Of a DNA stretch of 64,000 nucleotides, positions 24,378 to 64,000 are shown piece by piece (position 1 is the first letter of the stretch; the number at the start of each line of letters is the position of its first letter). Under the pieces are notes generated by a model. The model saw only the letters and a program-made list of their open reading frames with translations, made no database searches and had not been told where the DNA came from. Made by a program: the position numbers and the translations under genes. The DNA is from Sipunculus nudus (taxonomy: Eukaryota; Annelida; Sipuncula; Golfingiida; Sipunculidae): positions 53,551,812 to 53,615,811 of the forward strand of contig CM049314.1 in assembly GCA_026874595.1 (NCBI GenBank). The letters run 5' to 3'.

Positions 24378-26640
24378 GAGTGGTCGGGTAAACAGAGATA
24401 TCGTGTCAGCAGGATAGTCGTGTAAGCAGAGGTATCATGTCAGCAGGATGGTCAATGTAAGCAGAGTTATCGCGTCAGCAGGATGGTCGTGTAAGCAGAG
24501 GTATCATGTGAGCAGGAAGGTCGTGTAAGCAGAGGTATCGTGTCAGCAGGATGGTCAATGTAAGCAGAGTTATCGCGTCAGCAGGATGGTCGTGTGAGCA
24601 GAGGTATCGTGTGAGCAGGATGGTCGTGTGAGCAGAGGTATCGTGTCAGCAGGATGGTCGTGTAAGCAGAGGTATCGTATCAGCAGGATGGTCGTGTAAG
24701 CAGAGGTATCGTGTCAACAGGATAGTCAGGTAAACAGAGGTATCGTGTCAGCAGGATGGTCATGTAAACAGAGGTATCGTGTCAGCAGGATGGTCGTGTA
24801 AGCAGAGGTATCGTGTCAGCAGGATGGTCTTGTTAACAGAGGTATCGTGTCAGCAGGATGGTCGTGTAAGCAGAGGTATCGTGTCAGCAGGATGGTCATG
24901 TAAGCAGAGGTATCGTGTCAGCAGGATGGTCGTGTAAGGAGAGGTATCGTGTCAGCAGGATGGTCATGTAAACAGAGGTATCGTGTCAGCAGGATGGTCA
25001 TGTAAACAGAGGTATTGTGTCAGCAGGATGGTCGTGTCAGCAGAGGTATCGTGTCAGCAGGATGGTCGTGTAAACAGAGGTATCGTGTCAGCAGGATTGT
25101 CGAGTAAGCAGAGGCATCGTGTCAGCAGGATGGTCGTGTAAGCAGAGGTATCGTGTCAGCAGGATGGTCATGTAAGCAGAGGTATCGTGTCAGCAGGATG
25201 GTCGTGTAAGCAGAGGTATCGTGTCAGCAGGATGGTAATGTAAACAGAGGTATCGTGTCAGCAGGATGGTCTTGTGAGCAGAGGTATCGTGTCAACAGGA
25301 TGGTCATGTCAGCAGAGGTATCGTGTCAGCAGGATGGTCTTGTAAGCAGAGGTATCGTGTCAGCAGGATGGTCTTGTGAGCAGAGGTATCGTGTCAGCAG
25401 TATAGTCAGGTAAACAGAGGTATCGTGTCAGCAGGATGGTCGTGTAAGCAGAGGTATCGTGTCAGCAGGATGGTAATGTAAACAGAGGTTTCGTGTCAGC
25501 AAAATGGTCGTGTAAACCGAGGTATCGTGTCAGCAGAATGGTCGTGTAAACAGAGGTATCGTGTCAGCAGGATGGTCATGTAAACAGAGGTATCGTGTCA
25601 GCAGGATGGTCGAGTAAGCAGAGGTATCGTGTCAGCAGGATGGTCGTGTAAGCATAGGTATCGTGTCAGCAGGATGGTCATGTAAGCAGAGATATCGTGT
25701 CAGCAGGATGGTCGTGTAAGCAGAGGTATCGTGTCAGCAGGATGGTAATGTAAACAGAGGTATCGTGTCAGCAGGATGGTCTTATGAGAAGAGGTATCGT
25801 GTCAGCAGGATGGTCATGTAAGCAGAGGTATCGTGTCAGCAGGATGGTCGTGTAAGCAGAGGTATCGTGTCAACAGGATGGTAATGTAAACAGAGGTATC
25901 GTGTTAGCAGGATGGTCTTGTGCGCAGAGGTATCGTGTCAACAGGATGGTCATGTAAGCAGAGGTATCGTGTCAGCAGGATGGTCTTGTAAGCAGAGGTA
26001 TCGTGTCAGCAGGATGGTCTTGTGAGCAGAGGTATCGTGTCAGCAGGATGGTCGTGTAAGCAGAGGTATCGTGTCAGCAGGATGGTAATGTAAACAGAGG
26101 TATCGTGTCAGCAGGATGGTCTTATGAGAAGAGGTATCGTGTCAACAGGATGGTCATGTAAGCAGAGGTATCGTGTCAACAGGATGGTCGTTTAAGCAGA
26201 GGTATCGTGTCAGCAGGATGGTCTTGTAAGCAGAGGTATCGTGTCAACAGGATGGTCGTGTAAACAGAGGTATCGTGTGAGCGGGATGGTCTTGTTAACA
26301 GAGGTATCGTGTCAACAGGATCGTCGTGTAAACAGAGGTATCGTGTGAGCGGGATGGTTGTGTAAGCAGAGGTATCGTGTCAGCAGGATGGTCGTGTAAG
26401 CAGAGGTATCGTGTCAGCAGGATGGTCGTGTAAGCAGAGGTATCGTGTCAGCAGGATGGTCGTGTAAGCAGAGGTATCATGTCAGCATGATGGTCGTGTA
26501 AACAGAGGTATTTTGTGAGCAGGATGGTCTTGTTAACAGAGCTATCGTGTCAATAGGATGGTCATGTAAACAGAGGTATCGTGTCAGCAGGATGGTCGTG
26601 TAAGGAGAGGTATCGTGTTAGCAGGATGGTCTTGTGAGCA
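24378..26640 (+). repeat. Array III edge domain without the 23-bp marker
   Basis: About 66 monomers in which the truncated 23-bp unit is absent. Local duplications exist: GTCAATG at 24,451 and 24,554 (three monomers plus 1 bp) and CTTATGAGAA at 25,781 and 26,121 (ten monomers). No long higher-order repeat is evident. This is the expected structure of an array border. Confidence 0.8.
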
Positions 26641-32600: not shown

Positions 32601-34219
32601 TCGTGTCAGCAGGAAAGTCTTGTGAGCAGAGGTATCGTGTCAGCAGGATGGTCGTGTAAACAGAGGTATCGTGTGAGCGGAATGGTCTTGTATTTACAGA
32701 GTTATCGTGTCAACAGCATGGTCATTTAAACAGAGGTATCGTGTCAGCAGGATGGTCGTATAAGCAGAGGTATCATGTCAGCATGATGGTCGTGTAAACA
32801 GAGGTATTGTGTGAGCAGGATGGTCGTGTAAACAGAGGTATCGTGTGAGCGGAATGGTCTTGTATTTACAGAGTTATCGTGTCAACAGCATGGTCATTTA
32901 AACAGAGGTATCGTGTCAGCAGGATGGTCGTATAAGCAGAGGTATCATGTCAGCATGATGGTCGTGTAAACAGAGGTATTGTGTGAGCAGGATGGTCTTG
33001 TTAACAGAGCTATCGTGTCAATAGAATGGTCATGTAAACAGAGGTATCGTGTCAGCGGGATGGTCATGTAAACAGAGGTATCGTGTCAGCAGGATGGTCG
33101 TGTAAGGAGAGGTATCGTGTCAGCAGGATGGTCTTGTGAGCAGAGGTATCGTGTCAGCAGGATGGTCTTGTGAGCAGAAGTATCGTGTCAACAGGATGGT
33201 CATGTAAACAGAGGTATCGTGTCAGCAGGATGGTCATGTAAACAGAGGTATCTTGTGAGCAGGATGGTCTTGTTAACAGTGGTATCGTGTGAGCAGGATG
33301 GTCTTGTTAACAGAAGTATCGTGTCAACAGGATGGTCATGTAAACAAAAGTATCCTGTCAGCAGGATGGTCGTGTAAGCAGAGGTATCGTGTCAACAGGA
33401 TGGTCGTGTAAACAGAGGTATCGTGTGAGCGGGATGGTCTTGTTAACAGAGGTATCGTGTCAACAGGATGGTCGTGTAAACAGAGGTATCGTGTGAGCGG
33501 GATGGTCTTGTTAACAGAGTTATCGTGTCAACAGGATGGTCATGTAAGCAGAGGTATCGTGTCAACAGGATGGTCATGTAAGCAGAGGTATCGTGTCAGC
33601 AGGATGGTCTTGTAAGCAGAGGTATCGTGTCAGCAGGATGGTCGTGTAAGCAGAGGTATCGTGTCAGCAGGATGGTAATGTAAACAGAGGTATCGTGTCA
33701 GCAGGACGGTCTTATGAGAAGAGGTATCGTGTCAGCAGGATGGTCGTGTAAACAGAGGTATCGTGTCAGCAGGATGGTCTTGTGAGCAGAGGTATCGTGT
33801 CAGCAGGATAGTCTTGTGAGCAGAGGTATCGTGTCAGCAGGATAGTCTTGTGAGCAGAGGTATCGTGTCAGCAGGATGGTCGTGTAAACAGAGGTATTTT
33901 GTGAGCAGGATGGTCTTGTTAACAGAGCTATCGTGTCAATAGGATGGTCATGTAAACAGAGGTATCGTGTCAGCAGGATGGTCGTGTAAGGAGAGGTATC
34001 GTGTTAGCAGGATGGTCTTGTGAGCAGAGATATCGTGTCAACAGTGTCAGAGGTATCGTGTCAGCAAGATGGTAATGTAAACAGAGGTTTCGTGTCAGCA
34101 AAATGGTCGTGTAAACAGAGCTATCGTGTCAGCAGGATGGTCGTGTAAGTAGAGGTATCGTGTCAGCAGGAATATTCCTGTAAGCAGAGGTATCGTGTCA
34201 GCAGGATGGTAATGTAAAC
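26641..34219 (+). repeat. Array III domain with higher-order repeats of about 1.2-1.45 kb
   Basis: The 23-bp marker starts at 26,651, 27,048, 28,397, 29,850, 31,199, 32,412 and 34,037. Intervals are 397, 1,349, 1,453, 1,349, 1,213 and 1,625 bp. Most are about 35-42 monomers plus 23 bp and share the same variant order after the marker (GCAAGATGGTAATG, GCAAAATGG, TAAGTAGAGG, then GATAGTC, then GAAAGTC). Two intervals carry a +2 bp variant, CTTGTATTTACAG (28,674, 32,691, 32,863). Confidence 0.85.
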
Positions 34220-37200
34220 AGAGGTATCGTGTTAGCAGGATGGTCTTGTGAGCAGAGATATCGTGTCAACAGTGTCAGAGGTATCGTGTCAGCAAGATGG
34301 TAATGTAAACAGAGGTTTCGTGTCAGCAAAATGGTCGTGTAAACAGAGCTATCGTGTCAGCAGGATGGTCGTGTAAGTAGAGGTATCGTGTCAGCAGGAT
34401 GGTCTTGTGAGCAGAGGTATCGTGTCAGCAGGATAGTCTTGTGAGCAGATGTATCGTGTCAGCAGGAAAGTCTTGTGAGCAGAGGTATCGTGTCAGCAGG
34501 ATGGTCGTGTAAACAGAGGTATCGTGTGAGCGGAATGGTCTTGTTAACAGAGTTATCGTGTCAACAGCATGGTCATTTAAACAGAGGTATCGTGTCAGCA
34601 GGATGGTCGTATAAGCAGAGGTATCGTGTCAGCAGGATGTTCGTGTAAACAGAGGTATCGTGTGAGCAGGATGGTCTTGTTAACAGAGGTATCGCGTTAA
34701 CAGGATGGTCATGTAAGCAGAGGTATCGTGTCAGCACGATGGTCGTGTAAGCAGAGGTATCATGTCAGCATGATGGTCGTGTAAACAGAGGTATTGTGTG
34801 AGCAGGATGGTCTTGTTAACAGAGCTATCGTGTCAATAGAATGGTCATGTAAACAGAGGTATCGTGTCAGCGGGATGGTCATGTAAACAGAGGTATCGTG
34901 TCAGCAGGATGGTCTTGTTAACAGAGGTATCGTGTCAACAGGATGGTCGTGTAAGCAGAGGTATCGTGTCAGCAGGATGGTCTTGTGAGCAGAGGTATCG
35001 TGTCAGCAGGATGGTAATGTAAATAGAGGTATCGTGTCAGCAGGATGGTCTTGTAAGCAGAGGTATCGTGTCAACAGGATGGTCGTGTAAGCAGAGGTAT
35101 CGTGTCAGCAGGAAGGTCTTGTGAGCAGAGGTATCGTGTCAGCAGGATGGTAATGTAAACAGAGGTATCGTGTCAGCAGGATGGTCTTGTAAGCAGAGGT
35201 ATCGTGTCAGCAGGAATATTCCTGTAAGCAGAGGTATCGTGTCAGCAGGATGGTAATGTAAACAGAGGTATCGTGTCAGCAGGATGGTCGTGTAAACAGA
35301 GGTATTTTGTGAGCAGGATGGTCTTGTTAACAGAGCTATCATGTCAATAGGATGGTCATGTAAACAGAGGTATCGTGTCAGCAGGATGGTCGTGTAAGGA
35401 GAGGTATCGTGTTAGCAGGATGGTCTTGTGAGCAGAGATATCGTGTCAACAGTGTCAGAGGTATCGTGTCAGCAAGATGGTAATGTAAACAGAGGTTTCG
35501 TGTCAGCAAAATGGTCGTGTAAACAGAGCTATCGTGTCAGCAGGATGGTCGTGTAAGTAGAGGTATCGTGTCAGCAGGATGGTCTTGTGAGCAGAGGTAT
35601 CGTGTCAGCAGGATAGTCTTGTGAGCAGATGTATCGTGTCAGCAGGAAAGTCTTGTGAGCAGAGGTATCGTGTCAGCAGGATGGTCGTGTAAACAGAGGT
35701 ATCGTGTGAGCGGAATGGTCTTGTTAACAGAGTTATCGTGTCAACAGCATGGTCATTTAAACAGAGGTATCGTGTCAGCAGGATGGTCGTATAAGCAGAG
35801 GTATCGTGTCAGCAGGATGTTCGTGTAAACAGAGGTATCGTGTGAGCAGGATGGTCTTGTTAACAGAGGTATCGCGTCAACAGGATGGTCATGTAAGCAG
35901 AGGTATCGTGTCAGCACGATGGTCGTGTAAGCAGAGGTATCATGTCAGCATGATGGTCGTGTAAACAGAGGTATTGTGTGAGCAGGATGGTCTTGTTAAC
36001 AGAGCTATCGTGTCAATAGAATGGTCATGTAAACAGAGGTATCGTGTCAGCGGGATGGTCATGTAAACAGAGGTATCGTGTCAGCAGGATGGTCGTGTAA
36101 GGAGAGGTATCGTGTCAGCAGGATGGTCTTGTGAGCAGAGGTATCGTGTCAGCAGGATGGTCTTGTGAGCAGAAGTATCGTGTCAACAGGATGGTCATGT
36201 AAACAGAGGTATCGTGTCAGCAGGATGGTCATGTAAACAGAGGTATCTTGTGAGCAGGATGGTCTTGTTAACAGTGGTATCGTGTGAGCAGGATGGTCTT
36301 GTTAACAGAAGTATCGTGTCAACAGGATGGTCATGTAAACAAAAGTATCCTGTCAGCAGGATGGTCGTGTAAGCAGAGGTATCGTGTCAACAGGATGGTC
36401 GTGTAAACAGAGGTATCGTGTGAGCGGGATGGTCTTGTTAACAGAGGTATCGTGTCAACAGGATGGTCGTGTAAACAGAGGTATCGTGTGAGCGGGATGG
36501 TCTTGTTAACAGAGTTATCGTGTCAACAGGATGGTCATGTAAGCAGAGGTATCGTGTCAACAGGATGGTCATGTAAGCAGAGGTATCGTGTCAGCAGGAT
36601 GGTCTTGTAAGCAGAGGTATCGTGTCAGCAGGATGGTCGTGTAAGCAGAGGTATCGTGTCAGCAGGATGGTAATGTAAACAGAGGTATCGTGTCAGCAGG
36701 ATGGTCTTATGAGAAGAGGTATCGTGTCAGCAGGATGGTCGTGTAAACAGAGGTATCGTGTGAGCGGGATGGTCTTGTTAACAGAGGTATCGTGTCAACA
36801 GGATGGTCGTGTAAGCAGAGGTATCGTGTCAGCAGGATGGTCTTGTGAGCAGAGGTATCGTGTCAGCAGGATAGTCTTGTGAGCAGAGGTATCGTGTCAG
36901 CAGGATAGTCTTGTGAGCAGAGGTATCGTGTCAGCAGGATGGTCGTGTAAACAGAGGTATTTTGTGAGCAGGATGGTCTTGTTAACAGAGCTATCGTGTC
37001 AATAGGATGGTCATGTAAACAGAGGTATCGTGTCAGCAGGATGGTCGTGTAAGGAGAGGTATCGTGTTAGCAGGATGGTCTTGTGAGCAGAGATATCGTG
37101 TCAACAGTGTCAGAGGTATCGTGTCAGCAAGATGGTAATGTAAACAGAGGTTTCGTGTCAGCAAAATGGTCGTGTAAACAGAGCTATCGTGTCAGCAGGA

Positions 37201-40200
37201 TGGTCGTGTAAGTAGAGGTATCGTGTCAGCAGGATGGTCTTGTGAGCAGAGGTATCGTGTCAGCAGGATAGTCTTGTGAGCAGATGTATCGTGTCAGCAG
37301 GAAAGTCTTGTGAGCAGAGGTATCGTGTCAGCAGGATGGTCGTGTAAACAGAGGTATCGTGTGAGCGGAATGGTCTTGTTAACAGAGTTATCGTGTCAAC
37401 AGCATGGTCATTTAAACAGAGGTATCGTGTCAGCAGGATGGTCGTATAAGCAGAGGTATCGTGTCAGCAGGATGTTCGTGTAAACAGAGGTATCGTGTGA
37501 GCAGGATGGTCTTGTTAACAGAGGTATCGCGTCAACAGGATGGTCATGTAAGCAGAGGTATCGTGTCAGCACGATGGTCGTGTAAGCAGAGGTATCATGT
37601 CAGCATGATGGTCGTGTAAACAGAGGTATTGTGTGAGCAGGATGGTCTTGTTAACAGAGCTATCGTGTCAATAGAATGGTCATGTAAACAGAGGTATCGT
37701 GTCAGCGGGATGGTCATGTAAACAGAGGTATCGTGTCAGCAGGATGGTCGTGTAAGGAGAGGTATCGTGTCAGCAGGATGGTCTTGTGAGCAGAGGTATC
37801 GTGTCAGCAGGATGGTCTTGTGAGCAGAAGTATCGTGTCAACAGGATGGTCATGTAAACAGAGGTATCGTGTCAGCAGGATGGTCTTGTTAACAGAGGTA
37901 TCGTGTGAGCAGGATGGTCTTGTTAACAGAAGTATCGTGTCAACAGGATGGTCATGTAAACAAAAGTATCCTGTCAGCAGGATGGTCGTGTAAGCAGAGG
38001 TATCGTGTCAACAGGATGGTCGTGTAAACAGAGGTATTTTGTGAGCAGGATGGTCTTGTTAACAGAGCTATCATGTCAATAGGATGGTCATGTAAACAGA
38101 GGTATCGTGTCAGCAGGATGGTCGTGTAAGGAGAGGTATCGTGTTAGCAGGATGGTCTTGTGAGCAGAGATATCGTGTCAACAGTGTCAGAGGTATCGTG
38201 TCAGCAAGATGGTAATGTAAACAGAGGTTTCGTGTCAGCAAAATGGTCGTGTAAACAGAGCTATCGTGTCAGCAGGATGGTCGTGTAAGTAGAGGTATCG
38301 TGTCAGCAGGATGGTCTTGTGAGCAGAGGTATCGTGTCAGCAGGATAGTCTTGTGAGCAGATGTATCGTGTCAGCAGGAAAGTCTTGTGAGCAGAGGTAT
38401 CGTGTCAGCAGGATGGTCGTGTAAACAGAGGTATCGTGTGAGCGGAATGGTCTTGTTAACAGAGTTATCGTGTCAACAGCATGGTCATTTAAACAGAGGT
38501 ATCGTGTCAGCAGGATGGTCGTATAAGCAGAGGTATCGTGTCAGCAGGATGTTCGTGTAAACAGAGGTATCGTGTGAGCAGGATGGTCTTGTTAACAGAG
38601 GTATCGCGTCAACAGGATGGTCATGTAAGCAGAGGTATCGTGTCAGCACGATGGTCGTGTAAGCAGAGGTATCATGTCAGCATGATGGTCGTGTAAACAG
38701 AGGTATTGTGTGAGCAGGATGGTCTTGTTAACAGAGCTATCGTGTCAATAGAATGGTCATGTAAACAGAGGTATCGTGTCAGCGGGATGGTCATGTAAAC
38801 AGAGGTATCGTGTCAGCAGGATGGTCGTGTAAGAAGAGGTATCGTGTCAGCAGGATGGTCTTGTGAGCAGAGGTATCGTGTCAGCAGGATGGTCTTGTGA
38901 GCAGAAGTATCGTGTCAACAGGATGGTCATGTAAACAGAGGTATCGTGTCAGCAGGATGGTCATGTAAACAGAGGTATCGTGTGAGCAGGATGGTCTTGT
39001 TAACAGAGGTATCGTGTGAGCAGGATGGTCTTGTTAACAGAAGTATCGTGTCAACAGGATGGTCATGTAAACAAAAGTATCCTGTCAGCAGGATGGTCGT
39101 GTAAGCAGAGGTATCGTGTCAACAGGATGGTCGTGTAAACAGAGGTATCGTGTGAGCGGGATGGTCTTGTTAACAGAGGTATCGTGTCAACAGGATCGTC
39201 GTGTAAACAGAGGTATCGTGTGAGCGGGATGGTTGTGTAAGCAGAGGTATCGTGTCAGCAGGATGGTCGTGTAAGCAGAGGTATCGTGTCAGCAGGATGG
39301 TCGTGTAAGCAGAGGTATCGTGTCAGCAGGATGGTCGTGTAAGCAGAGGTATCATGTCAGCATGATGGTCGTGTAAACAGAGGTATTTTGTGAGCAGGAT
39401 GGTCTTGTTAACAGAGCTATCGTGTCAATAGGATGGTCATGTAAACAGAGGTATCGTGTCAGCAGGATGGTCGTGTAAACAGAGGTATCGTGTGAGCGGG
39501 ATGGTCTTGTTAACAGAGGTATCGTGTCAACAGGATGGTCGTGTAAACAGAGGTATCGTGTGAGCGGGATGGTCTTGTTAACAGAGTTATCGTGTCAACA
39601 GGATGGTCATGTAAGCAGAGGTATCGTGTCAACAGGATGGTCATGTAAGCAGAGGTATCGTGTCAGTAGGATGGTCTCGTAAGCAGAGGTATCGTGTCAG
39701 CAGGATGGTCGTGTAAGCAGAGGTATCGTGTCAGCAGGATGGTAATGTAAACAGAGGTATCGTGTCAGCAGGATGGTCTTATGAGAATAGGTATTGTGTC
39801 AGCAGGATGGTCGTGTAAACAGAGGTATCGTGTGAGCGGGATGGTCTTGTTAACAGAGGTATCGTGTCAACAGGATGGTCGTGTAAGCAGAGGTATCGTG
39901 TCAGCAGGATGGTCTTGTGAGCAGAGGTATCGTGTCAGCAGGATAGTCTTGTGAGCAGAGGTATCGTGTCAGCAGGATAGTCTTGTGAGCAGAGGTATCG
40001 TGTCAGCAGGATGGTCGTGTAAACAGAGGTATTTTGTGAGCAGGATGGTCTTGTTAACAGAGCTATCGTGTCAATAGGATGGTCATGTAAACAGAGGTAT
40101 CGTGTCAGCAGGATGGTCGTGTAAGGAGAGGTATCGTGTTAGCAGGATGGTCTTGTGAGCAGAGATATCGTGTCAACAGTGTCAGAGGTATCGTGTCAGC

Positions 40201-42896
40201 AGGATGGTCGTATAAGCAGAGGTATCGTGTCAGCAGGATGTTCGTGTAAACAGAGGTATCGTGTGAGCAGGATGGTCTTGTTAACAGAGGTATCGCGTCA
40301 ACAGGATGGTCATGTAAGCAGAGGTATCGTGTCAGCACGATGGTCGTGTAAGCAGAGGTATCATGTCAGCATGATGGTCGTGTAAACAGAGGTATTGTGT
40401 GAGCAGGATGGTCTTGTTAACAGAGCTATCGTGTCAATAGAATGGTCATGTAAACAGAGGTATCGTGTCAGCGGGATGGTCATGTAAACAGAGGTATCGT
40501 GTCAACAGGATGGTCATGTGAGCAGAAGTATCGTGTCAACAGGATGGTCATGTAAACAGAGGTATCGTGTCAGCAGGATGGTCATGTAAACAGAGGTATC
40601 GTGTGAGCAGGATGGTCTTGTTAACAGAGGTATCGTGTGAGCAGGATGGTAGTATAAGCAGAGGTATCGTGTCAGCAGGATGGTCTTGTTAACAGAGGTA
40701 TCGTGTCAACAGGATGGTCATGTAAGCAGAGATATCGTGTCAGCAGGATGGTCTTGTTTACAGAGGTATCGTGTCAACAGGATGGTCATGTAAGCAGAGG
40801 TATCGTGTGAGCAGGATGGTCTTGTTAACAGAGGTATCGCGTCAACAGGATGGTCATGTAAGCAGAGGTATCGTGTCAGCACGATGGTCGTGTAAGCAGA
40901 GGTATCATGTCAGCATGATGGTCGTGTAAACAGAGGTATTGTGTGAGCAGGATGGTCTTGTTAACAGAGCTATCGTGTCAATAGAATGGTCATGTAAACA
41001 GAGGTATCGTGTCAGCGGGATGGTCATGTAAACAGAGGTATCGTGTCAGCAGGATGGTCGTGTAAGGAGAGGTATCGTGTCAGCAGGATGGTCTTGTGAG
41101 CAGAGGTATCGTGTCAGCAGGATGGTCTTGTGAGCAGAAGTATCGTGTCAACAGGATGGTCATGTAAACAGAGGTATCGTGTGAGCAGGATGGTCTTGTT
41201 AACAGAGGTATCGTGTGAGCAGGATGGTCTTGTTAACAGAAGTATCGTGTCAACAGGATGGTCATGTAAACAAAAGTATCCTGTCAGCAGGATGGTCGTG
41301 TAAGCAGAGGTATCGTGTCAACAGGATGGTCGTGTAAACAGAGGTATTTTGTGAGCAGGATGGTCTTGTTAACAGAGCTATCATGTCAATAGGATGGTCA
41401 TGTAAACAGAGGTATCGTGTCAGCAGGATGGTCGTGTAAGGAGAGGTATCGTGTTAGCAGGATGGTCTTGTGAGCAGAGATATCGTGTCAACAGTGTCAG
41501 AGGTATCGTGTCAGCAAGATGGTAATGTAAACAGAGGTTTCGTGTCAGCAAAATGGTCGTGTAAACAGAGCTATCGTGTCAGCAGGATGGTCGTGTAAGT
41601 AGAGGTATCGTGTCAGCAGGATGGTCTTGTGAGCAGAGGTATCGTGTCAGCAGGATAGTCTTGTGAGCAGATGTATCGTGTCAGCAGGAAAGTCTTGTGA
41701 GCAGAGGTATCGTGTCAGCAGGATGGTCGTGTAAACAGAGGTATCGTGTGAGCGGAATGGTCTTGTTAACAGAGTTATCGTGTCAACAGCATGGTCATTT
41801 AAACAGAGGTATCGTGTCAGCAGGATGGTCGTATAAGCAGAGGTATCGTGTCAGCAGGATGTTCGTGTAAACAGAGGTATCGTGTGAGCAGGATGGTCTT
41901 GTTAACAGAGGTATCGCGTCAACAGGATGGTCATGTAAGCAGAGGTATCGTGTCAGCACGATGGTCGTGTAAGCAGAGGTATCATGTCAGCATGATGGTC
42001 GTGTAAACAGAGGTATTGTGTGAGCAGGATGGTCTTGTTAACAGAGCTATCGTGTCAATAGAATGGTCATGTAAACAGAGGTATCGTGTCAGCGGGATGG
42101 TCATGTAAACAGAGGTATCGTGTCAGCAGGATGGTCGTGTAAGAAGAGGTATCGTGTCAGCAGGATGGTCTTGTGAGCAGAGGTATCGTGTCAGCAGGAT
42201 GGTCTTGTGAGCAGAAGTATCGTGTCAACAGGATGGTCATGTAAACAGAGGTATCGTGTCAGCAGGATGGTCATGTAAACAGAGGTATCGTGTGAGCAGG
42301 ATGGTCTTGTTAACAGAGGTATCGTGTGAGCAGGATGGTCTTGTTAACAGAAGTATCGTGTCAACAGGATGGTCATGTAAACAAAAGTATCCTGTCAGCA
42401 GGATGGTCGTGTAAGCAGAGGTATCGTGTCAACAGGATGGTCGTGTAAACAGAGGTATCGTGTGAGCGGGATGGTCTTGTTAACAGAGGTATCGTGTCAA
42501 CAGGATCGTCGTGTAAACAGAGGTATCGTGTGAGCGGGATGGTTGTGTAAGCAGAGGTATCGTGTCAGCAGGATGGTCGTGTAAGCAGAGGTATCGTGTC
42601 AGCAGGATGGTCGTGTAAGCAGAGGTATCGTGTCAGCAGGATGGTCGTGTAAGCAGAGGTATCATGTCAGCATGATGGTCGTGTAAACAGAGGTATTTTG
42701 TGAGCAGGATGGTCTTGTTAACAGAGCTATCGTGTCAATAGGATGGTCATGTAAACAGAGGTATCGTGTCAGCAGGATGGTCGTGTAAACAGAGGTATCG
42801 TGTGAGCGGGATGGTCTTGTTAACAGAGGTATCGTGTCAACAGGATGGTCGTGTAAACAGAGGTATCGTGTGAGCGGGATGGTCTTGTTAACAGAG
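34220..42896 (+). repeat. 8,945-bp higher-order repeat, first copy
   Basis: Markers at 34,265, 35,445, 37,100, 38,177, 40,172 and 41,487 recur at exactly +8,945 in the second copy. One period contains 259 full monomers, six 23-bp monomers and one extra base from a 35-bp variant carrying GGAATATTCCTG. By eye, identity holds from 34,220 to 42,896. At least three substitutions were found (for example ATGGTCTCGTAAGC near 39,676 against CTTGT in the other copy). Confidence 0.85.
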
Positions 42897-43164
42897 GTAT
42901 CGTGTCAACAGGATGGTCGTGTAAGCAGAGGTATCGTGTCAGCAGGATGGTCTTGTGAGCAGAGGTATCGTGTCAGCAGGATAGTCTTGTGAGCAGAGGT
43001 ATCGTGTCAGCAGGATAGTCTTGTGAGCAGAGGTATCGTGTCAGCAGGATGGTCGTGTAAACAGAGGTATTTTGTGAGCAGGATGGTCTTGTTAACAGAG
43101 CTATCGTGTCAATAGGATGGTCATGTAAACAGAGGTATCGTGTCAGCAGGATGGTCGTGTAAGG

Positions 43165-46100
43165 AGAGGTATCGTGTTAGCAGGATGGTCTTGTGAGCAG
43201 AGATATCGTGTCAACAGTGTCAGAGGTATCGTGTCAGCAAGATGGTAATGTAAACAGAGGTTTCGTGTCAGCAAAATGGTCGTGTAAACAGAGCTATCGT
43301 GTCAGCAGGATGGTCGTGTAAGTAGAGGTATCGTGTCAGCAGGATGGTCTTGTGAGCAGAGGTATCGTGTCAGCAGGATAGTCTTGTGAGCAGATGTATC
43401 GTGTCAGCAGGAAAGTCTTGTGAGCAGAGGTATCGTGTCAGCAGGATGGTCGTGTAAACAGAGGTATCGTGTGAGCGGAATGGTCTTGTTAACAGAGTTA
43501 TCGTGTCAACAGCATGGTCATTTAAACAGAGGTATCGTGTCAGCAGGATGGTCGTATAAGCAGAGGTATCGTGTCAGCAGGATGTTCGTGTAAACAGAGG
43601 TATCGTGTGAGCAGGATGGTCTTGTTAACAGAGGTATCGCGTCAACAGGATGGTCATGTAAGCAGAGGTATCGTGTCAGCACGATGGTCGTGTAAGCAGA
43701 GGTATCATGTCAGCATGATGGTCGTGTAAACAGAGGTATTGTGTGAGCAGGATGGTCTTGTTAACAGAGCTATCGTGTCAATAGAATGGTCATGTAAACA
43801 GAGGTATCGTGTCAGCGGGATGGTCATGTAAACAGAGGTATCGTGTCAGCAGGATGGTCTTGTTAACAGAGGTATCGTGTCAACAGGATGGTCGTGTAAG
43901 CAGAGGTATCGTGTCAGCAGGATGGTCTTGTGAGCAGAGGTATCGTGTCAGCAGGATGGTAATGTAAACAGAGGTATCGTGTCAGCAGGATGGTCTTGTA
44001 AGCAGAGGTATCGTGTCAACAGGATGGTCGTGTAAGCAGAGGTATCGTGTCAGCAGGAAGGTCTTGTGAGCAGAGGTATCGTGTCAGCAGGATGGTAATG
44101 TAAACAGAGGTATCGTGTCAGCAGGATGGTCTTGTAAGCAGAGGTATCGTGTCAGCAGGAATATTCCTGTAAGCAGAGGTATCGTGTCAGCAGGATGGTA
44201 ATGTAAACAGAGGTATCGTGTCAGCAGGATGGTCGTGTAAACAGAGGTATTTTGTGAGCAGGATGGTCTTGTTAACAGAGCTATCATGTCAATAGGATGG
44301 TCATGTAAACAGAGGTATCGTGTCAGCAGGATGGTCGTGTAAGGAGAGGTATCGTGTTAGCAGGATGGTCTTGTGAGCAGAGATATCGTGTCAACAGTGT
44401 CAGAGGTATCGTGTCAGCAAGATGGTAATGTAAACAGAGGTTTCGTGTCAGCAAAATGGTCGTGTAAACAGAGCTATCGTGTCAGCAGGATGGTCGTGTA
44501 AGTAGAGGTATCGTGTCAGCAGGATGGTCTTGTGAGCAGAGGTATCGTGTCAGCAGGATAGTCTTGTGAGCAGATGTATCGTGTCAGCAGGAAAGTCTTG
44601 TGAGCAGAGGTATCGTGTCAGCAGGATGGTCGTGTAAACAGAGGTATCGTGTGAGCGGAATGGTCTTGTTAACAGAGTTATCGTGTCAACAGCATGGTCA
44701 TTTAAACAGAGGTATCGTGTCAGCAGGATGGTCGTATAAGCAGAGGTATCGTGTCAGCAGGATGTTCGTGTAAACAGAGGTATCGTGTGAGCAGGATGGT
44801 CTTGTTAACAGAGGTATCGCGTCAACAGGATGGTCATGTAAGCAGAGGTATCGTGTCAGCACGATGGTCGTGTAAGCAGAGGTATCATGTCAGCATGATG
44901 GTCGTGTAAACAGAGGTATTGTGTGAGCAGGATGGTCTTGTTAACAGAGCTATCGTGTCAATAGAATGGTCATGTAAACAGAGGTATCGTGTCAGCGGGA
45001 TGGTCATGTAAACAGAGGTATCGTGTCAGCAGGATGGTCGTGTAAGGAGAGGTATCGTGTCAGCAGGATGGTCTTGTGAGCAGAGGTATCGTGTCAGCAG
45101 GATGGTCTTGTGAGCAGAAGTATCGTGTCAACAGGATGGTCATGTAAACAGAGGTATCGTGTCAGCAGGATGGTCATGTAAACAGAGGTATCTTGTGAGC
45201 AGGATGGTCTTGTTAACAGTGGTATCGTGTGAGCAGGATGGTCTTGTTAACAGAAGTATCGTGTCAACAGGATGGTCATGTAAACAAAAGTATCCTGTCA
45301 GCAGGATGGTCGTGTAAGCAGAGGTATCGTGTCAACAGGATGGTCGTGTAAACAGAGGTATCGTGTGAGCGGGATGGTCTTGTTAACAGAGGTATCGTGT
45401 CAACAGGATGGTCGTGTAAACAGAGGTATCGTGTGAGCGGGATGGTCTTGTTAACAGAGTTATCGTGTCAACAGGATGGTCATGTAAGCAGAGGTATCGT
45501 GTCAACAGGATGGTCATGTAAGCAGAGGTATCGTGTCAGCAGGATGGTCTTGTAAGCAGAGGTATCGTGTCAGCAGGATGGTCGTGTAAGCAGAGGTATC
45601 GTGTCAGCAGGATGGTAATGTAAACAGAGGTATCGTGTCAGCAGGATGGTCTTATGAGAAGAGGTATCGTGTCAGCAGGATGGTCGTGTAAACAGAGGTA
45701 TCGTGTGAGCGGGATGGTCTTGTTAACAGAGGTATCGTGTCAACAGGATGGTCGTGTAAGCAGAGGTATCGTGTCAGCAGGATGGTCTTGTGAGCAGAGG
45801 TATCGTGTCAGCAGGATAGTCTTGTGAGCAGAGGTATCGTGTCAGCAGGATAGTCTTGTGAGCAGAGGTATCGTGTCAGCAGGATGGTCGTGTAAACAGA
45901 GGTATTTTGTGAGCAGGATGGTCTTGTTAACAGAGCTATCGTGTCAATAGGATGGTCATGTAAACAGAGGTATCGTGTCAGCAGGATGGTCGTGTAAGGA
46001 GAGGTATCGTGTTAGCAGGATGGTCTTGTGAGCAGAGATATCGTGTCAACAGTGTCAGAGGTATCGTGTCAGCAAGATGGTAATGTAAACAGAGGTTTCG

Positions 46101-49100
46101 TGTCAGCAAAATGGTCGTGTAAACAGAGCTATCGTGTCAGCAGGATGGTCGTGTAAGTAGAGGTATCGTGTCAGCAGGATGGTCTTGTGAGCAGAGGTAT
46201 CGTGTCAGCAGGATAGTCTTGTGAGCAGATGTATCGTGTCAGCAGGAAAGTCTTGTGAGCAGAGGTATCGTGTCAGCAGGATGGTCGTGTAAACAGAGGT
46301 ATCGTGTGAGCGGAATGGTCTTGTTAACAGAGTTATCGTGTCAACAGCATGGTCATTTAAACAGAGGTATCGTGTCAGCAGGATGGTCGTATAAGCAGAG
46401 GTATCGTGTCAGCAGGATGTTCGTGTAAACAGAGGTATCGTGTGAGCAGGATGGTCTTGTTAACAGAGGTATCGCGTCAACAGGATGGTCATGTAAGCAG
46501 AGGTATCGTGTCAGCACGATGGTCGTGTAAGCAGAGGTATCATGTCAGCATGATGGTCGTGTAAACAGAGGTATTGTGTGAGCAGGATGGTCTTGTTAAC
46601 AGAGCTATCGTGTCAATAGAATGGTCATGTAAACAGAGGTATCGTGTCAGCGGGATGGTCATGTAAACAGAGGTATCGTGTCAGCAGGATGGTCGTGTAA
46701 GGAGAGGTATCGTGTCAGCAGGATGGTCTTGTGAGCAGAGGTATCGTGTCAGCAGGATGGTCTTGTGAGCAGAAGTATCGTGTCAACAGGATGGTCATGT
46801 AAACAGAGGTATCGTGTCAGCAGGATGGTCTTGTTAACAGAGGTATCGTGTGAGCAGGATGGTCTTGTTAACAGAAGTATCGTGTCAACAGGATGGTCAT
46901 GTAAACAAAAGTATCCTGTCAGCAGGATGGTCGTGTAAGCAGAGGTATCGTGTCAACAGGATGGTCGTGTAAACAGAGGTATTTTGTGAGCAGGATGGTC
47001 TTGTTAACAGAGCTATCATGTCAATAGGATGGTCATGTAAACAGAGGTATCGTGTCAGCAGGATGGTCGTGTAAGGAGAGGTATCGTGTTAGCAGGATGG
47101 TCTTGTGAGCAGAGATATCGTGTCAACAGTGTCAGAGGTATCGTGTCAGCAAGATGGTAATGTAAACAGAGGTTTCGTGTCAGCAAAATGGTCGTGTAAA
47201 CAGAGCTATCGTGTCAGCAGGATGGTCGTGTAAGTAGAGGTATCGTGTCAGCAGGATGGTCTTGTGAGCAGAGGTATCGTGTCAGCAGGATAGTCTTGTG
47301 AGCAGATGTATCGTGTCAGCAGGAAAGTCTTGTGAGCAGAGGTATCGTGTCAGCAGGATGGTCGTGTAAACAGAGGTATCGTGTGAGCGGAATGGTCTTG
47401 TTAACAGAGTTATCGTGTCAACAGCATGGTCATTTAAACAGAGGTATCGTGTCAGCAGGATGGTCGTATAAGCAGAGGTATCGTGTCAGCAGGATGTTCG
47501 TGTAAACAGAGGTATCGTGTGAGCAGGATGGTCTTGTTAACAGAGGTATCGCGTCAACAGGATGGTCATGTAAGCAGAGGTATCGTGTCAGCACGATGGT
47601 CGTGTAAGCAGAGGTATCATGTCAGCATGATGGTCGTGTAAACAGAGGTATTGTGTGAGCAGGATGGTCTTGTTAACAGAGCTATCGTGTCAATAGAATG
47701 GTCATGTAAACAGAGGTATCGTGTCAGCGGGATGGTCATGTAAACAGAGGTATCGTGTCAGCAGGATGGTCGTGTAAGAAGAGGTATCGTGTCAGCAGGA
47801 TGGTCTTGTGAGCAGAGGTATCGTGTCAGCAGGATGGTCTTGTGAGCAGAAGTATCGTGTCAACAGGATGGTCATGTAAACAGAGGTATCGTGTCAGCAG
47901 GATGGTCATGTAAACAGAGGTATCGTGTGAGCAGGATGGTCTTGTTAACAGAGGTATCGTGTGAGCAGGATGGTCTTGTTAACAGAAGTATCGTGTCAAC
48001 AGGATGGTCATGTAAACAAAAGTATCCTGTCAGCAGGATGGTCGTGTAAGCAGAGGTATCGTGTCAACAGGATGGTCGTGTAAACAGAGGTATCGTGTGA
48101 GCGGGATGGTCTTGTTAACAGAGGTATCGTGTCAACAGGATCGTCGTGTAAACAGAGGTATCGTGTGAGCGGGATGGTTGTGTAAGCAGAGGTATCGTGT
48201 CAGCAGGATGGTCGTGTAAGCAGAGGTATCGTGTCAGCAGGATGGTCGTGTAAGCAGAGGTATCGTGTCAGCAGGATGGTCGTGTAAGCAGAGGTATCAT
48301 GTCAGCATGATGGTCGTGTAAACAGAGGTATTTTGTGAGCAGGATGGTCTTGTTAACAGAGCTATCGTGTCAATAGGATGGTCATGTAAACAGAGGTATC
48401 GTGTCAGCAGGATGGTCGTGTAAACAGAGGTATCGTGTGAGCGGGATGGTCTTGTTAACAGAGGTATCGTGTCAACAGGATGGTCGTGTAAACAGAGGTA
48501 TCGTGTGAGCGGGATGGTCTTGTTAACAGAGTTATCGTGTCAACAGGATGGTCATGTAAGCAGAGGTATCGTGTCAACAGGATGGTCATGTAAGCAGAGG
48601 TATCGTGTCAGTAGGATGGTCTTGTAAGCAGAGGTATCGTGTCAGCAGGATGGTCGTGTAAGCAGAGGTATCGTGTCAGCAGGATGGTAATGTAAACAGA
48701 GGTATCGTGTCAGCAGGATGGTCTTATGAGAATAGGTATTGTGTCAGCAGGATGGTCGTGTAAACAGAGGTATCGTGTGAGCGGGATGGTCTTGTTAACA
48801 GAGGTATCGTGTCAACAGGATGGTCGTGTAAGCAGAGGTATCGTGTCAGCAGGATGGTCTTGTGAGCAGAGGTATCGTGTCAGCAGGATAGTCTTGTGAG
48901 CAGAGGTATCGTGTCAGCAGGATAGTCTTGTGAGCAGAGGTATCGTGTCAGCAGGATGGTCGTGTAAACAGAGGTATTTTGTGAGCAGGATGGTCTTGTT
49001 AACAGAGCTATCGTGTCAATAGGATGGTCATGTAAACAGAGGTATCGTGTCAGCAGGATGGTCGTGTAAGGAGAGGTATCGTGTTAGCAGGATGGTCTTG

Positions 49101-51841
49101 TGAGCAGAGATATCGTGTCAACAGTGTCAGAGGTATCGTGTCAGCAGGATGGTCGTATAAGCAGAGGTATCGTGTCAGCAGGATGTTCGTGTAAACAGAG
49201 GTATCGTGTGAGCAGGATGGTCTTGTTAACAGAGGTATCGCGTCAACAGGATGGTCATGTAAGCAGAGGTATCGTGTCAGCACGATGGTCGTGTAAGCAG
49301 AGGTATCATGTCAGCATGATGGTCGTGTAAACAGAGGTATTGTGTGAGCAGGATGGTCTTGTTAACAGAGCTATCGTGTCAATAGAATGGTCATGTAAAC
49401 AGAGGTATCGTGTCAGCGGGATGGTCATGTAAACAGAGGTATCGTGTCAACAGGATGGTCATGTGAGCAGAAGTATCGTGTCAACAGGATGGTCATGTAA
49501 ACAGAGGTATCGTGTCAGCAGGATGGTCATGTAAACAGAGGTATCGTGTGAGCAGGATGGTCTTGTTAACAGAGGTATCGTGTGAGCAGGATGGTAGTAT
49601 AAGCAGAGGTATCGTGTCAGCAGGATGGTCTTGTTAACAGAGGTATCGTGTCAACAGGATGGTCATGTAAGCAGAGATATCGTGTCAGCAGGATGGTCTT
49701 GTTTACAGAGGTATCGTGTCAACAGGATGGTCATGTAAGCAGAGGTATCGTGTGAGCAGGATGGTCTTGTTAACAGAGGTATCGCGTCAACAGGATGGTC
49801 ATGTAAGCAGAGGTATCGTGTCAGCACGATGGTCGTGTAAGCAGAGGTATCATGTCAGCATGATGGTCGTGTAAACAGAGGTATTGTGTGAGCAGGATGG
49901 TCTTGTTAACAGAGCTATCGTGTCAATAGAATGGTCATGTAAACAGAGGTATCGTGTCAGCGGGATGGTCATGTAAACAGAGGTATCGTGTCAGCAGGAT
50001 GGTCGTGTAAGGAGAGGTATCGTGTCAGCAGGATGGTCTTGTGAGCAGAGGTATCGTGTCAGCAGGATGGTCTTGTGAGCAGAAGTATCGTGTCAACAGG
50101 ATGGTCATGTAAACAGAGGTATCGTGTGAGCAGGATGGTCTTGTTAACAGAGGTATCGTGTGAGCAGGATGGTCTTGTTAACAGAAGTATCGTGTCAACA
50201 GGATGGTCATGTAAACAAAAGTATCCTGTCAGCAGGATGGTCGTGTAAGCAGAGGTATCGTGTCAACAGGATGGTCGTGTAAACAGAGGTATTTTGTGAG
50301 CAGGATGGTCTTGTTAACAGAGCTATCATGTCAATAGGATGGTCATGTAAACAGAGGTATCGTGTCAGCAGGATGGTCGTGTAAGGAGAGGTATCGTGTT
50401 AGCAGGATGGTCTTGTGAGCAGAGATATCGTGTCAACAGTGTCAGAGGTATCGTGTCAGCAAGATGGTAATGTAAACAGAGGTTTCGTGTCAGCAAAATG
50501 GTCGTGTAAACAGAGCTATCGTGTCAGCAGGATGGTCGTGTAAGTAGAGGTATCGTGTCAGCAGGATGGTCTTGTGAGCAGAGGTATCGTGTCAGCAGGA
50601 TAGTCTTGTGAGCAGATGTATCGTGTCAGCAGGAAAGTCTTGTGAGCAGAGGTATCGTGTCAGCAGGATGGTCGTGTAAACAGAGGTATCGTGTGAGCGG
50701 AATGGTCTTGTTAACAGAGTTATCGTGTCAACAGCATGGTCATTTAAACAGAGGTATCGTGTCAGCAGGATGGTCGTATAAGCAGAGGTATCGTGTCAGC
50801 AGGATGTTCGTGTAAACAGAGGTATCGTGTGAGCAGGATGGTCTTGTTAACAGAGGTATCGCGTCAACAGGATGGTCATGTAAGCAGAGGTATCGTGTCA
50901 GCACGATGGTCGTGTAAGCAGAGGTATCATGTCAGCATGATGGTCGTGTAAACAGAGGTATTGTGTGAGCAGGATGGTCTTGTTAACAGAGCTATCGTGT
51001 CAATAGAATGGTCATGTAAACAGAGGTATCGTGTCAGCGGGATGGTCATGTAAACAGAGGTATCGTGTCAGCAGGATGGTCGTGTAAGAAGAGGTATCGT
51101 GTCAGCAGGATGGTCTTGTGAGCAGAGGTATCGTGTCAGCAGGATGGTCTTGTGAGCAGAAGTATCGTGTCAACAGGATGGTCATGTAAACAGAGGTATC
51201 GTGTCAGCAGGATGGTCATGTAAACAGAGGTATCGTGTGAGCAGGATGGTCTTGTTAACAGAGGTATCGTGTGAGCAGGATGGTCTTGTTAACAGAAGTA
51301 TCGTGTCAACAGGATGGTCATGTAAACAAAAGTATCCTGTCAGCAGGATGGTCGTGTAAGCAGAGGTATCGTGTCAACAGGATGGTCGTGTAAACAGAGG
51401 TATCGTGTGAGCGGGATGGTCTTGTTAACAGAGGTATCGTGTCAACAGGATCGTCGTGTAAACAGAGGTATCGTGTGAGCGGGATGGTTGTGTAAGCAGA
51501 GGTATCGTGTCAGCAGGATGGTCGTGTAAGCAGAGGTATCGTGTCAGCAGGATGGTCGTGTAAGCAGAGGTATCGTGTCAGCAGGATGGTCGTGTAAGCA
51601 GAGGTATCATGTCAGCATGATGGTCGTGTAAACAGAGGTATTTTGTGAGCAGGATGGTCTTGTTAACAGAGCTATCGTGTCAATAGGATGGTCATGTAAA
51701 CAGAGGTATCGTGTCAGCAGGATGGTCGTGTAAACAGAGGTATCGTGTGAGCGGGATGGTCTTGTTAACAGAGGTATCGTGTCAACAGGATGGTCGTGTA
51801 AACAGAGGTATCGTGTGAGCGGGATGGTCTTGTTAACAGAG
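43165..51841 (+). repeat. 8,945-bp higher-order repeat, second copy
   Basis: Markers lie at 43,210, 44,390, 46,045, 47,122, 49,117 and 50,432, all offset by 8,945 from the first copy. After 51,841 the copies part company. The last interval is 1,995 bp here but 1,723 bp in copy one, a difference of 272 bp or eight monomers. The landmark GGAATATTCCTG recurs at 44,159, as at 35,214. Confidence 0.85.
46436..49745 (+). repeat. 3,310-bp higher-order repeat, first unit (nested in the 8,945-bp repeat)
   Basis: Landmarks here recur at +3,310: markers 47,122 and 49,117 against 50,432 and 52,427, and the TAAGAAGAGG variant at about 47,776 against 51,086. Before 46,436 the two copies differ (GATGTTCGTGTAAAC against GATGGTCATGTAAGC), which marks the boundary. 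One substitution was noted near 46,818. Confidence 0.8.
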
Positions 51842-53055
51842 TTATCGTGTCAACAGGATGGTCATGTAAGCAGAGGTATCGTGTCAACAGGATGGTCATG
51901 TAAGCAGAGGTATCGTGTCAGTAGGATGGTCTTGTAAGCAGAGGTATCGTGTCAGCAGGATGGTCGTGTAAGCAGAGGTATCGTGTCAGCAGGATGGTAA
52001 TGTAAACAGAGGTATCGTGTCAGCAGGATGGTCTTATGAGAATAGGTATTGTGTCAGCAGGATGGTCGTGTAAACAGAGGTATCGTGTGAGCGGGATGGT
52101 CTTGTTAACAGAGGTATCGTGTCAACAGGATGGTCGTGTAAGCAGAGGTATCGTGTCAGCAGGATGGTCTTGTGAGCAGAGGTATCGTGTCAGCAGGATA
52201 GTCTTGTGAGCAGAGGTATCGTGTCAGCAGGATAGTCTTGTGAGCAGAGGTATCGTGTCAGCAGGATGGTCGTGTAAACAGAGGTATTTTGTGAGCAGGA
52301 TGGTCTTGTTAACAGAGCTATCGTGTCAATAGGATGGTCATGTAAACAGAGGTATCGTGTCAGCAGGATGGTCGTGTAAGGAGAGGTATCGTGTTAGCAG
52401 GATGGTCTTGTGAGCAGAGATATCGTGTCAACAGTGTCAGAGGTATCGTGTCAGCAGGATGGTCGTATAAGCAGAGGTATCGTGTCAGCAGGATGTTCGT
52501 GTAAACAGAGGTATCGTGTGAGCAGGATGGTCTTGTTAACAGAGGTATCGCGTCAACAGGATGGTCATGTAAGCAGAGGTATCGTGTCAGCACGATGGTC
52601 GTGTAAGCAGAGGTATCATGTCAGCATGATGGTCGTGTAAACAGAGGTATTGTGTGAGCAGGATGGTCTTGTTAACAGAGCTATCGTGTCAATAGAATGG
52701 TCATGTAAACAGAGGTATCGTGTCAGCGGGATGGTCATGTAAACAGAGGTATCGTGTCAACAGGATGGTCATGTGAGCAGAAGTATCGTGTCAACAGGAT
52801 GGTCATGTAAACAGAGGTATCGTGTCAGCAGGATGGTCATGTAAACAGAGGTATCGTGTGAGCAGGATGGTCTTGTTAACAGAGGTATCGTGTGAGCAGG
52901 ATGGTAGTATAAGCAGAGGTATCGTGTCAGCAGGATGGTCTTGTTAACAGAGGTATCGTGTCAACAGGATGGTCATGTAAGCAGAGATATCGTGTCAGCA
53001 GGATGGTCTTGTTTACAGAGGTATCGTGTCAACAGGATGGTCATGTAAGCAGAGG
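49746..53055 (+). repeat. 3,310-bp higher-order repeat, second unit
   Basis: This is head-to-tail with the preceding unit and the match ends near 53,060. The same tandem pair is seen earlier as 37,491-40,800 followed by a shortened unit from 40,801 to about 42,896. The 3,310-bp duplication is therefore probably older than the 8,945-bp duplication. Confidence 0.8.
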
Positions 53056-62400: not shown

Positions 62401-64000
62401 GTGTCAGCGGGATGGTCATGTAAACAGAGGTATCGTGTCAGCAGGATGGTCGTGTAAGAAGAGGTATCGTGTCAGCAGGATGGTCTTGTGAGCAGAGGTA
62501 TCGTGTCAGCAGGATGGTCTTGTGAGCAGAAGTATCGTGTCAACAGGATGGTCATGTAAACAGAGGTATCGTGTCAGCAGGATGGTCATGTAAACAGAGG
62601 TATCGTGTGAGCAGGATGGTCTTGTTAACAGAGGTATCGTGTGAGCAGGATGGTCTTGTTAACAGAAGTATCGTGTCAACAGGATGGTCATGTAAACAAA
62701 AGTATCCTGTCAGCAGGATGGTCGTGTAAGCAGAGGTATCGTGTCAACAGGATGGTCGTGTAAACAGAGGTATCGTGTGAGCGGGATGGTCTTGTTAACA
62801 GAGGTATCGTGTCAACAGGATCGTCGTGTAAACAGAGGTATCGTGTGAGCGGGATGGTTGTGTAAGCAGAGGTATCGTGTCAGCAGAATGGTCGTGTAAG
62901 CAGAGGTATCGTGTCAGCAGGATGGTCGTGTAAGCAGATGTATCGTGTCAGCAGGATGGTCGTGTAAGCAGAGGTATCATGTCAGCATGATGGTCGTGTA
63001 AACAGAGGTATTTTGTGAGCAGGATGGTCTTGTTAACAGGGCTATCGTGTCAATAGGATGGTCATGTAAACAGAGGTATCGTGTCAGCAGGATGGTCGTG
63101 TAAGGAGAGGTATCGTGTTAGCAGGATGGTCTTGTGAGCAGAGATATCGTGTCAACAGTGTCAGAGGTATCGTGTCAGCAAGATGGTAATGTAAACAGAG
63201 GTTTCGTGTCAGCAAAATGGTCGTGTAAACAGAGGTATCGTGTCAGCAGGATGGACGTATAAACAGAGGTATCGTGTGAGCAGGATGGTCTTGTTAACAG
63301 AGGTATCGTGTCAACAGGATGGTCATGTAAGCAGAGGTATCGTGTCAGCACGATGGTCGTGTAAGCAGAGGTATCATGTCAGCATGATGGTCGTGTAAAC
63401 AGAGGTATTGTGTGAGCAGGATGGTCTTGTTAACAGAGCTATCGTGTCAATAGAATGGTCATGTAAACAGAGGTATCGTGTCAGCGGGATGGTCATGTAA
63501 ACAGAGGTATCGTGTCAGCAGGATGGTCTTGTGAGCAGAGGTATCGTGTCAGCAGGATGGTCTTGTGAGCAGAAGTATCGTGTCAACAGGATGGTCATGT
63601 AAACAGAGGTATCGTGTCAGCAGGATGGTCATGTAAACAGAGGTATCGTGTGAGCAGGATGGTCTTGTTAACAGTGGTATCGTGTGAGCAGGATGGTCTT
63701 GTTAACAGAAGTATCGTGTCAACAGGATGGTCATGTAAACAAAAGTATCCTGTCAGCAGGATGGTCGTGTAAGCAGAGGTATCGTGTCAACAGGATGGTC
63801 GTGTAAACAGAGGTATCGTGTGAGCGGGATGGTCTTGTTAACAGAGGTATCGTGTCAACAGGATGGTCGTGTAAACAGAGGTATCGTGTGAGCGGGATGG
63901 TCTTGTTAACAGAGTTATCGTGTCAACAGGATGGTCATGTAAGCAGAGGTATCGTGTCAACAGGATGGTCATGTAAGCAGAGGTATCGTGTCAGCAGGAT
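59401..64000 (+). repeat. Array III right domain with mixed higher-order segments
   Basis: Markers lie at 59,467, 61,802 and 63,151 (intervals 2,335 and 1,349). Segments resemble both the domain of about 1.35-kb repeats and the 8,945-bp repeat. A chimaeric join at about 60,331 (TAAACAGATGTATCG) puts a GATGTATCG monomer directly after a TAGAATGGTCATG monomer. The array continues past the window edge. Confidence 0.8.

Follow-up and report, generated by a model that had tools for sequence, protein, structure and literature searches.

The window analysed here is a stretch of 64,000 nucleotides from Sipunculus nudus (C9:53551812-53615811, from an assembly of 1.427 Gb in 153 contigs). It holds a higher-order-repeat array of 34-bp monomers, which occupies positions 24378-64000 and runs on past the window to 65445, for a total of 41.07 kb. 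Coordinates without a contig or locus name are window positions, and features are given on the forward (+) strand. We consider it probable that this array is a satellite amplified locally at a single locus, and that its 17-bp base unit corresponds to the subterminal repeat of a family of pogo/Tigger-type DNA transposons.

A 34-bp array with recurring monomer order

Tandem Repeats Finder (TRF) called a single 34-bp array in the window at 24393-64000, and the adjoining genome sequence extended it by about 1,445 bp, so that the final 1.4 kb lies outside the window. Non-repeat, ordinary sequence adjoins the array at both ends. The main monomer, CAGAGGTATCGTGTCAGCAGGATGGTCGTGTAAG, is a dimer of 17-bp halves that are identical at 11/17 positions, and the array as a whole amounts to about 2,400 of the 17-bp units. 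The 34-bp decomposition is continuous throughout, with no foreign insert seen; the very long uninterrupted array of the original prediction is therefore confirmed, and is longer than the window itself could show.

Decomposition of the array (41,068 bp) yielded 1,218 monomers, the first and last of which are partial. Most (1,177) are 34 bp long, 28 are 23 bp long, and the remaining 13 are of other lengths. Altogether, 128 distinct monomer sequences are present, and 66 of these occur once. When the observed order was compared with 200 shuffles of the monomers, it proved far from random: the array contains 258 distinct neighbour pairs, against a shuffle mean of 907.8 (sd 9.7), and the longest monomer string repeated exactly is 136 monomers, against at most 4 in the shuffles. 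Fully 1,014/1,218 monomers (0.833) belong to a 10-monomer string that occurs at least twice. The array is thus a genuine higher-order repeat, in which variants of a short monomer follow a recurring order, as had been predicted; the variant analysis proposed at that stage gave no sign of the random order that would have spoken against it. A regular head-to-tail unit of one length was not found, and the spacings between the 23-bp monomers, which serve as landmarks of the higher-order repeat (for example, 40160-40182, one of 28 identical copies), are irregular.

The same early reading had listed a set of nested scales, and all of the listed periods are indeed present. A 172-bp period separates 36-bp monomers at 32661 and 32833; a 272-bp period corresponds to a tandem of 8 monomers in the row beginning at 52438; periods of 3,310, 3,435, 3,469, and 8,945 bp were detected in the analysis of monomer order; and 3,707 bp is the distance between the TRF rows at 52382 and 56089. 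The 27 spacings of the 23-bp monomer span 228-2,335 bp and include 397 bp twice and 1,349, 1,655, and 1,995 bp three times each. The periods do not fall into a regular ladder, as 1,655 and 1,995 bp are as frequent as 1,349 bp. The listed periods are the distances of single duplications within an irregular higher-order repeat, not fixed units. When the array is split at the 23-bp landmark, one long shared order emerges, which recurs in shortened, lengthened, and in places doubled forms. At the best monomer lag, 265 (8,945 bp), 28.2% of monomers are identical, against 2.6% expected. This lag corresponds to a super-repeat whose two copies, at 34220-42896 and 43165-51841, differ at 3 positions in 8,677 bp. 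The longest exact copy, of 4,653 bp, lies at the same distance.

The edges of the array differ from its core. The first 55 monomers (24378-26230) contain no 10-monomer string found elsewhere in the array, and the last 42 monomers share no such string with the rest. Unique monomers make up 34% (0.342) of the outer twentieths, against 0.7% (0.007) of the middle half. Likeness to the plain monomer consensus is 0.932 in the first 60 monomers and about 0.90 in the core, and falls to 0.84 at the right edge. These edges also bear on whether the assembler multiplied or collapsed blocks, chiefly the 8.9-kb pair, whose near identity would fit such an artefact. We regard an artefact as very unlikely, because the array runs into a non-repeat flank on each side, and because 28 irregularly spaced landmarks and private edge variants are not expected from a simple duplication error. 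The copy number of the assembled array may be wrong.

The proposed genome-wide search for the monomer placed every core match in this one array. An exact 27-mer core has 270 matches in the assembly, which share the same strand, and all 270 are within the array; a 20-mer core with at most one mismatch has 766, of which 766 are within the array. Because all core matches fall here, the 34-bp satellite form is restricted to this locus, at 53.58-53.62 Mb of a 79.82-Mb contig and away from the contig ends. The original prediction had raised the possibility of a centromeric or subtelomeric block. The single-locus counts (270/270 and 766/766) speak against a centromeric or subtelomeric satellite family, and the mid-contig position, together with the lack of any exact match in the array to the 17-bp CENP-B box (NTTCGNNNNANNCGGGN), also argues against such a block. 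A coding repeat was rejected as well, since the six frames of the array contain no stop-free stretch over 101 codons. No G3-type G-quadruplex motif was found in the array.

The 17-bp unit and the transposon that carries it

Distant relatives of the monomer (64-74% identical in short matches) are scattered across many contigs. Eleven such loci, taken as 10 kb each, contain arrays of a 17-bp unit and multiples thereof, and the consensus units of 15 arrays match the reference GTGGTCGTGTTAGCAGG at 13-17 of 17 positions, in a guided alignment that favours likeness. Spread of these minisatellites by a shared flank was rejected: an all-against-all comparison with the arrays masked revealed none common to the first 11 loci. 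Similarity to transposon termini was missed in that search because the termini overlap the masked arrays. Two highly uniform tandem arrays of other units lie near members of the 17-bp family, one of 207 bp (99%; L012:1-4054) and one of 181 bp (97%; L022:1347-3318).

A search for two joined units (34 bases, at most one mismatch) gave 120 matches on one strand and 81 on the other, and a reversed control gave 0. Among 100 listed places, 63 are exact; contigs C1 to C17 are represented, usually with a single match at each place. We selected and fetched 8 isolated joined-unit loci and found that the units sit in the ends of a transposable element. In 8/8 loci, the 5' terminus reads (TA)CAGTAAAACCCCGCTAACGCGACCAC..., after which come GCAAA and a pair of direct units, and TA precedes the element in 7/8. 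The 3' end, seen in 6/8 loci, reads ...GCGGGAGTTCACTG and is followed by TA (6/6), with direct units just inside. The terminal repeats pair imperfectly (score 12, equalled by 4/1,000 shuffles). Where both ends are present, the element is mostly 0.9-1.1 kb long, apart from one copy of 0.38 kb and one of 1.75 kb (L044). The first 28 bases of the 5' end occur 243 times with at most 2 mismatches, and a reversed control again gave 0.

Transposase is absent from the short copies, as checked in one of them (L044) by listing open reading frames (ORFs) only. A genome search for the DDE_1 domain returned 150 scored matches of 517 candidates, and we read six of these loci (L045-L050). L046 contains a 549-aa open frame with matches to DDE_1 (1.3e-46) and HTH_Tnp_Tc5 (6.2e-19); its match to CENP-B_N (0.005) is below the cut-off. 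Its TA-flanked ends lie 2,605 bp apart and resemble those of the short element, with scores of 40 and 42 against a best of 13 and 16 in 500 shuffles. The 17-bp spacing is also found in the L046 ends, most strongly at the right end. L046 thus combines a DDE_1 domain and a helix-turn-helix (HTH)/CENP-B-type domain with terminal inverted repeats (TIRs) and a TA target, as pogo/Tigger elements do. The short element thus falls within a pogo/Tigger-type lineage or stands close to it. TIRs are described as recognition sites, and CENP-B as derived from the pogo/Tigger group (PMC7325037); the 17-bp direct repeats in the element ends are possibly where the transposase binds. Among the other loci read, L045, L047, L048, and L049 end in a different terminus, TACAGT, and L050 has no visible terminus. 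These four represent a second DDE_1 family with the terminus TACAGTGGAG(C/T)GCCGTTCATCCGAACA, and L047 has a stop-free frame of 578 codons. We also observed near-even spacing of the 5' transposon ends, at about 17.7 kb and 38-39 kb, and of DDE_1 matches at about 10-15 kb; this spacing (C14:20.89-20.95 Mb, C1:91.14-91.22 Mb, C6:19.30-19.35 Mb) hints at tandem segmental duplications.

Arrays of the 17-bp unit adjoin these ends in a range of sizes. Four loci of our choosing contain 2.5 units at the element's 3' end (L044), 6.4 units adjoining the 5' terminus (L042), 10.5 units adjoining the 5' terminus, where a 34-bp period already fits best (L041), and 16.8 units flanked by 5' and 3' termini (L043). 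We also tested 14 arrays for termini by blind position, with flanks of 190 bp against 150 bp in controls, a difference that slightly favours matches. L014 holds about 95 units between both termini (p 0.002 and 0.010), and L021 holds about 275 units with a 5' terminus (p 0.002) and a weaker 3' end (p 0.087). At L013, an inner stretch of the element was found only (p 0.005). Altogether, a graded series of 2 to about 275 units is present in the genome.

The main monomer itself scored 26 against the transposon ends, against 21 for the best of 300 shuffles, and the unit of the main array appears to be homologous to the transposon repeats. On the right-hand edge, an L046-type terminus was matched with a score of 14 (p 0.003), but this match falls within the final units of the array and was not counted. 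Some 330 bp to the left of the array, positions 23994-24062 may contain decayed units, although the score of 22 is not significant against a shuffled maximum of 24.

The window contains two further arrays that bear on the family. A shorter 34-bp array at 17838-19124 (37.7 copies, by TRF and unit comparison) belongs to the same family; it scored 32 against the transposon ends, against 19 for shuffles, and shares a common dimer phase with the main array (18, against 12 at half period). A 53-bp array in two parts, 12412-13488 and 14602-15110, within 12412-15110, is a weak possible member, with a marginal score against the transposon ends of 22 versus 21. Its parts are separated by a 1.1-kb interspersed repeat (13487-14603) seemingly inserted into one array, for which a first look gave 7,635 candidates genome-wide and 48 matches among 40 scored. 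We rejected this repeat as a carrier of the minisatellites, because the other copies read (L026-L032, 7/7) have no such array alongside.

In the left flank of the main array, 10 stop-to-stop ORFs compared with Pfam gave a best E of 0.11, none past the cut-off, and other ORFs were listed only. A tandem array of a 38-bp unit (about 100 copies; L011:1-3774, C9:53541812 on) is present from about 10 kb ahead of the window, where the sequence read starts. A large inverted repeat lies on the right side of the main array (L009:9705-10000 and L010:1-868 versus L010:3351-4512); its arms are about 1.2 kb long and 86-98% alike in pieces.

Proposed growth of the array

These observations suggest a stepwise route. 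First, two to three direct units, 17 bp apart, stand near the ends of the short non-autonomous copies and of one or more copies whose transposase frame is intact. Second, transposition would have spread the 17-bp unit across chromosomes, a spread that is demonstrated for the element. Third, at some insertions the repeats would have gained copies while most of the element interior was lost or displaced; we infer that the graded series of unit numbers is a time series of this growth. Fourth, at the present locus, a two-unit block would have become the 34-bp monomer and diversified into variants. Blocks of monomers would then have been duplicated and deleted by unequal exchange in register, or by gene conversion, between copies. 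We propose that this process produced the higher-order repeat and the 8.9-kb duplication, and also left the core homogeneous and the edges degenerate. The 28 monomers of 23 bp share one sequence, which means that a single 11-bp deletion has been copied 28 times. From this, and from the in-register lengths, we infer homology-guided exchange, not end joining.

We simulated neutral unequal exchange under 18 settings with 6 runs each, holding array size by a rule that we set; in a first simulation of 9 settings with 4 runs each, higher-order order had appeared in 1/9. The closest setting (2-monomer matching, 0.3 new variants per event) gave, as a mean of 6 runs, 1,215 monomers and 113 variants (83-147), against the observed 1,218 and 128. 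Its uncovered ends were 44.5 and 43 monomers, against 55 and 42, and its unique-monomer fraction was 0.38 at the edges and 0.00 in the core, against 0.342 and 0.007. The simulation thus supports an exchange process as the likely source of the pattern that the array displays.

Several points weigh against this account. The closest setting yields too few neighbour pairs (165, versus 258 observed) and too high a repeated fraction (0.91 versus 0.83). It also lies in a narrow zone: in most of the 18 settings the number of variants is much too low or much too high, and the fit therefore depends on rate as well as on mechanism. A terminus at p <= 0.01 was found in just 5/14 family arrays (L014, L015, L017, L020, L021). 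At the flanks of the main array there is no transposon terminus (5' p 0.82, 3' p 0.61), so the unit is what links this array to the transposon, and the array at 17.8 kb and the 53-bp array of the window are likewise without a flanking terminus. The unit of the main array is 16/17 like the family reference, but the alignment behind this value was guided by that reference, and the family arrays were found because they resemble the main array or the element, at fetched loci that we chose. Finally, the direction may have been the reverse, with an ancestor of the element capturing a pre-existing minisatellite. Expansion from the element is the simpler direction.

Bare flanks at this array are also what one would expect of an ordinary minisatellite (a variable number of tandem repeats, VNTR) that slipped from a random 17-bp seed and resembles transposon ends by chance or convergence, and tandem repeats of up to 15 bp are reviewed as able to arise by chance in many places (PMC5615363). 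The monomer outscores 300/300 shuffles against the transposon ends, however, and other arrays of the family directly adjoin transposon termini, so we judge a random seed unlikely. Our preferred explanation remains that of growth from the ends of a transposon. We regard the array as a by-product of exchange at a seed derived from a transposon, with no function at present, an explanation for which a current function is not needed.

Possible function and relation to known satellites

We nevertheless considered two ways in which the array might act. In the first, it would nucleate the kinetochore or pericentric heterochromatin of its own chromosome. An ordered core with degenerate edges recalls human centromere arrays as described in PMC8122249, and the transposon group of the unit is reported to be related to CENP-B (PMC7325037). 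Set against these likenesses, the array is a single 41-kb locus without a CENP-B box, and its partial match to the box is at shuffle level: the main monomer agrees at no more than 6/9 key positions, a value equalled by 1,559/3,000 shuffles, and the transposon unit at 7/9, equalled by 242/3,000. Oyster centromeric chromatin, moreover, has been reported without a specific satellite (PMC8268682). We find a centromeric role highly improbable.

In the second, selection would have kept the array as a platform on which a host protein of pogo-type transposase origin lands. DDE_1 genes are plentiful, as the 150 scored matches attest, and the unit recurs in ends beside the gene of a related transposase whose DNA-binding domain is of the Tc5 type. 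Such binding is hypothetical, however; the monomer has diverged by drift from the unit of the element, and the observed pattern emerges from a neutral model, which makes a selected platform very improbable. A bolder version, which we put forward as a long shot, is that the array is a proto-centromere-like platform, with about 2,400 candidate binding units, that is still bound by a pogo-derived host protein. The path from the end repeats of a CENP-B-related transposon to a satellite of nested higher-order repeats would then be readable stage by stage within a single genome, and the platform might be an independent counterpart of the CENP-B box of alpha satellite.

The growth of repeats in transposon ends is already known, and the array is best read as a variant of a transposon-derived satellite. 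In Drosophila virilis, repeats in the ends of Tetris (TIR-220) are reported to have grown into a satellite (PMC4079207), and growth of this kind has been reviewed as a general route (PMC12628747). As in Tetris, tandem repeats are already present in the TIRs of a non-autonomous DNA transposon and are amplified, within the element, into satellite arrays. Tetris is described as a foldback element with 220-bp repeats and arrays of up to 66 copies, whereas here a 17-bp unit of a pogo/Tigger-type element reaches about 2,400 units, ordered into nested higher-order repeats, at one locus. Short arrays carried by elements are described as the rule in an oyster (PMC8268682), and the tandem-repeat miniature inverted-repeat transposable elements (MITEs) and Helitrons of bivalves similarly spread short arrays that can become standalone satellites (PMC8268682, PMC12628747). 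The bivalve repeats are reported as central in the elements and mostly 130-2,400 bp long, whereas the present ones are terminal and 17 bp long. Among open-access titles and abstract openings, we found no report of pogo/Tigger subterminal repeats grown into a higher-order satellite, which is not proof of absence from print.

In its organisation, the array resembles alpha satellite, in which blocks of diverged monomers are described as amplified as a unit, with a homogeneous core and less ordered edges (PMC8122249, PMC5615363). Alpha satellite has a 171-bp monomer and, by these accounts, is centromeric on all chromosomes and extends over megabases; the present array has a 34-bp monomer, occupies 41 kb at one locus, and has an irregular unit length. 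In cervid satellite I, too, a short subrepeat (31 bp) is reported to be built into units of about 0.8-1.0 kb (PMC7288315). That satellite is centromeric and occurs in many species, and no transposon origin is named in the available part of PMC7288315, in contrast to the transposon-linked single locus described here.

Accounts of how satellites begin, and of how higher-order order arises away from a centromere, usually have to work back from the end products. In this case, one genome holds the transposon, short inner arrays, mid-sized arrays beside its ends, and the nested array. Because all of these stages coexist, each step is datable and testable. The array also shows that a single non-terminal locus with a 34-bp monomer can acquire layered higher-order order, and such order alone is therefore not to be taken as a mark of a centromere.

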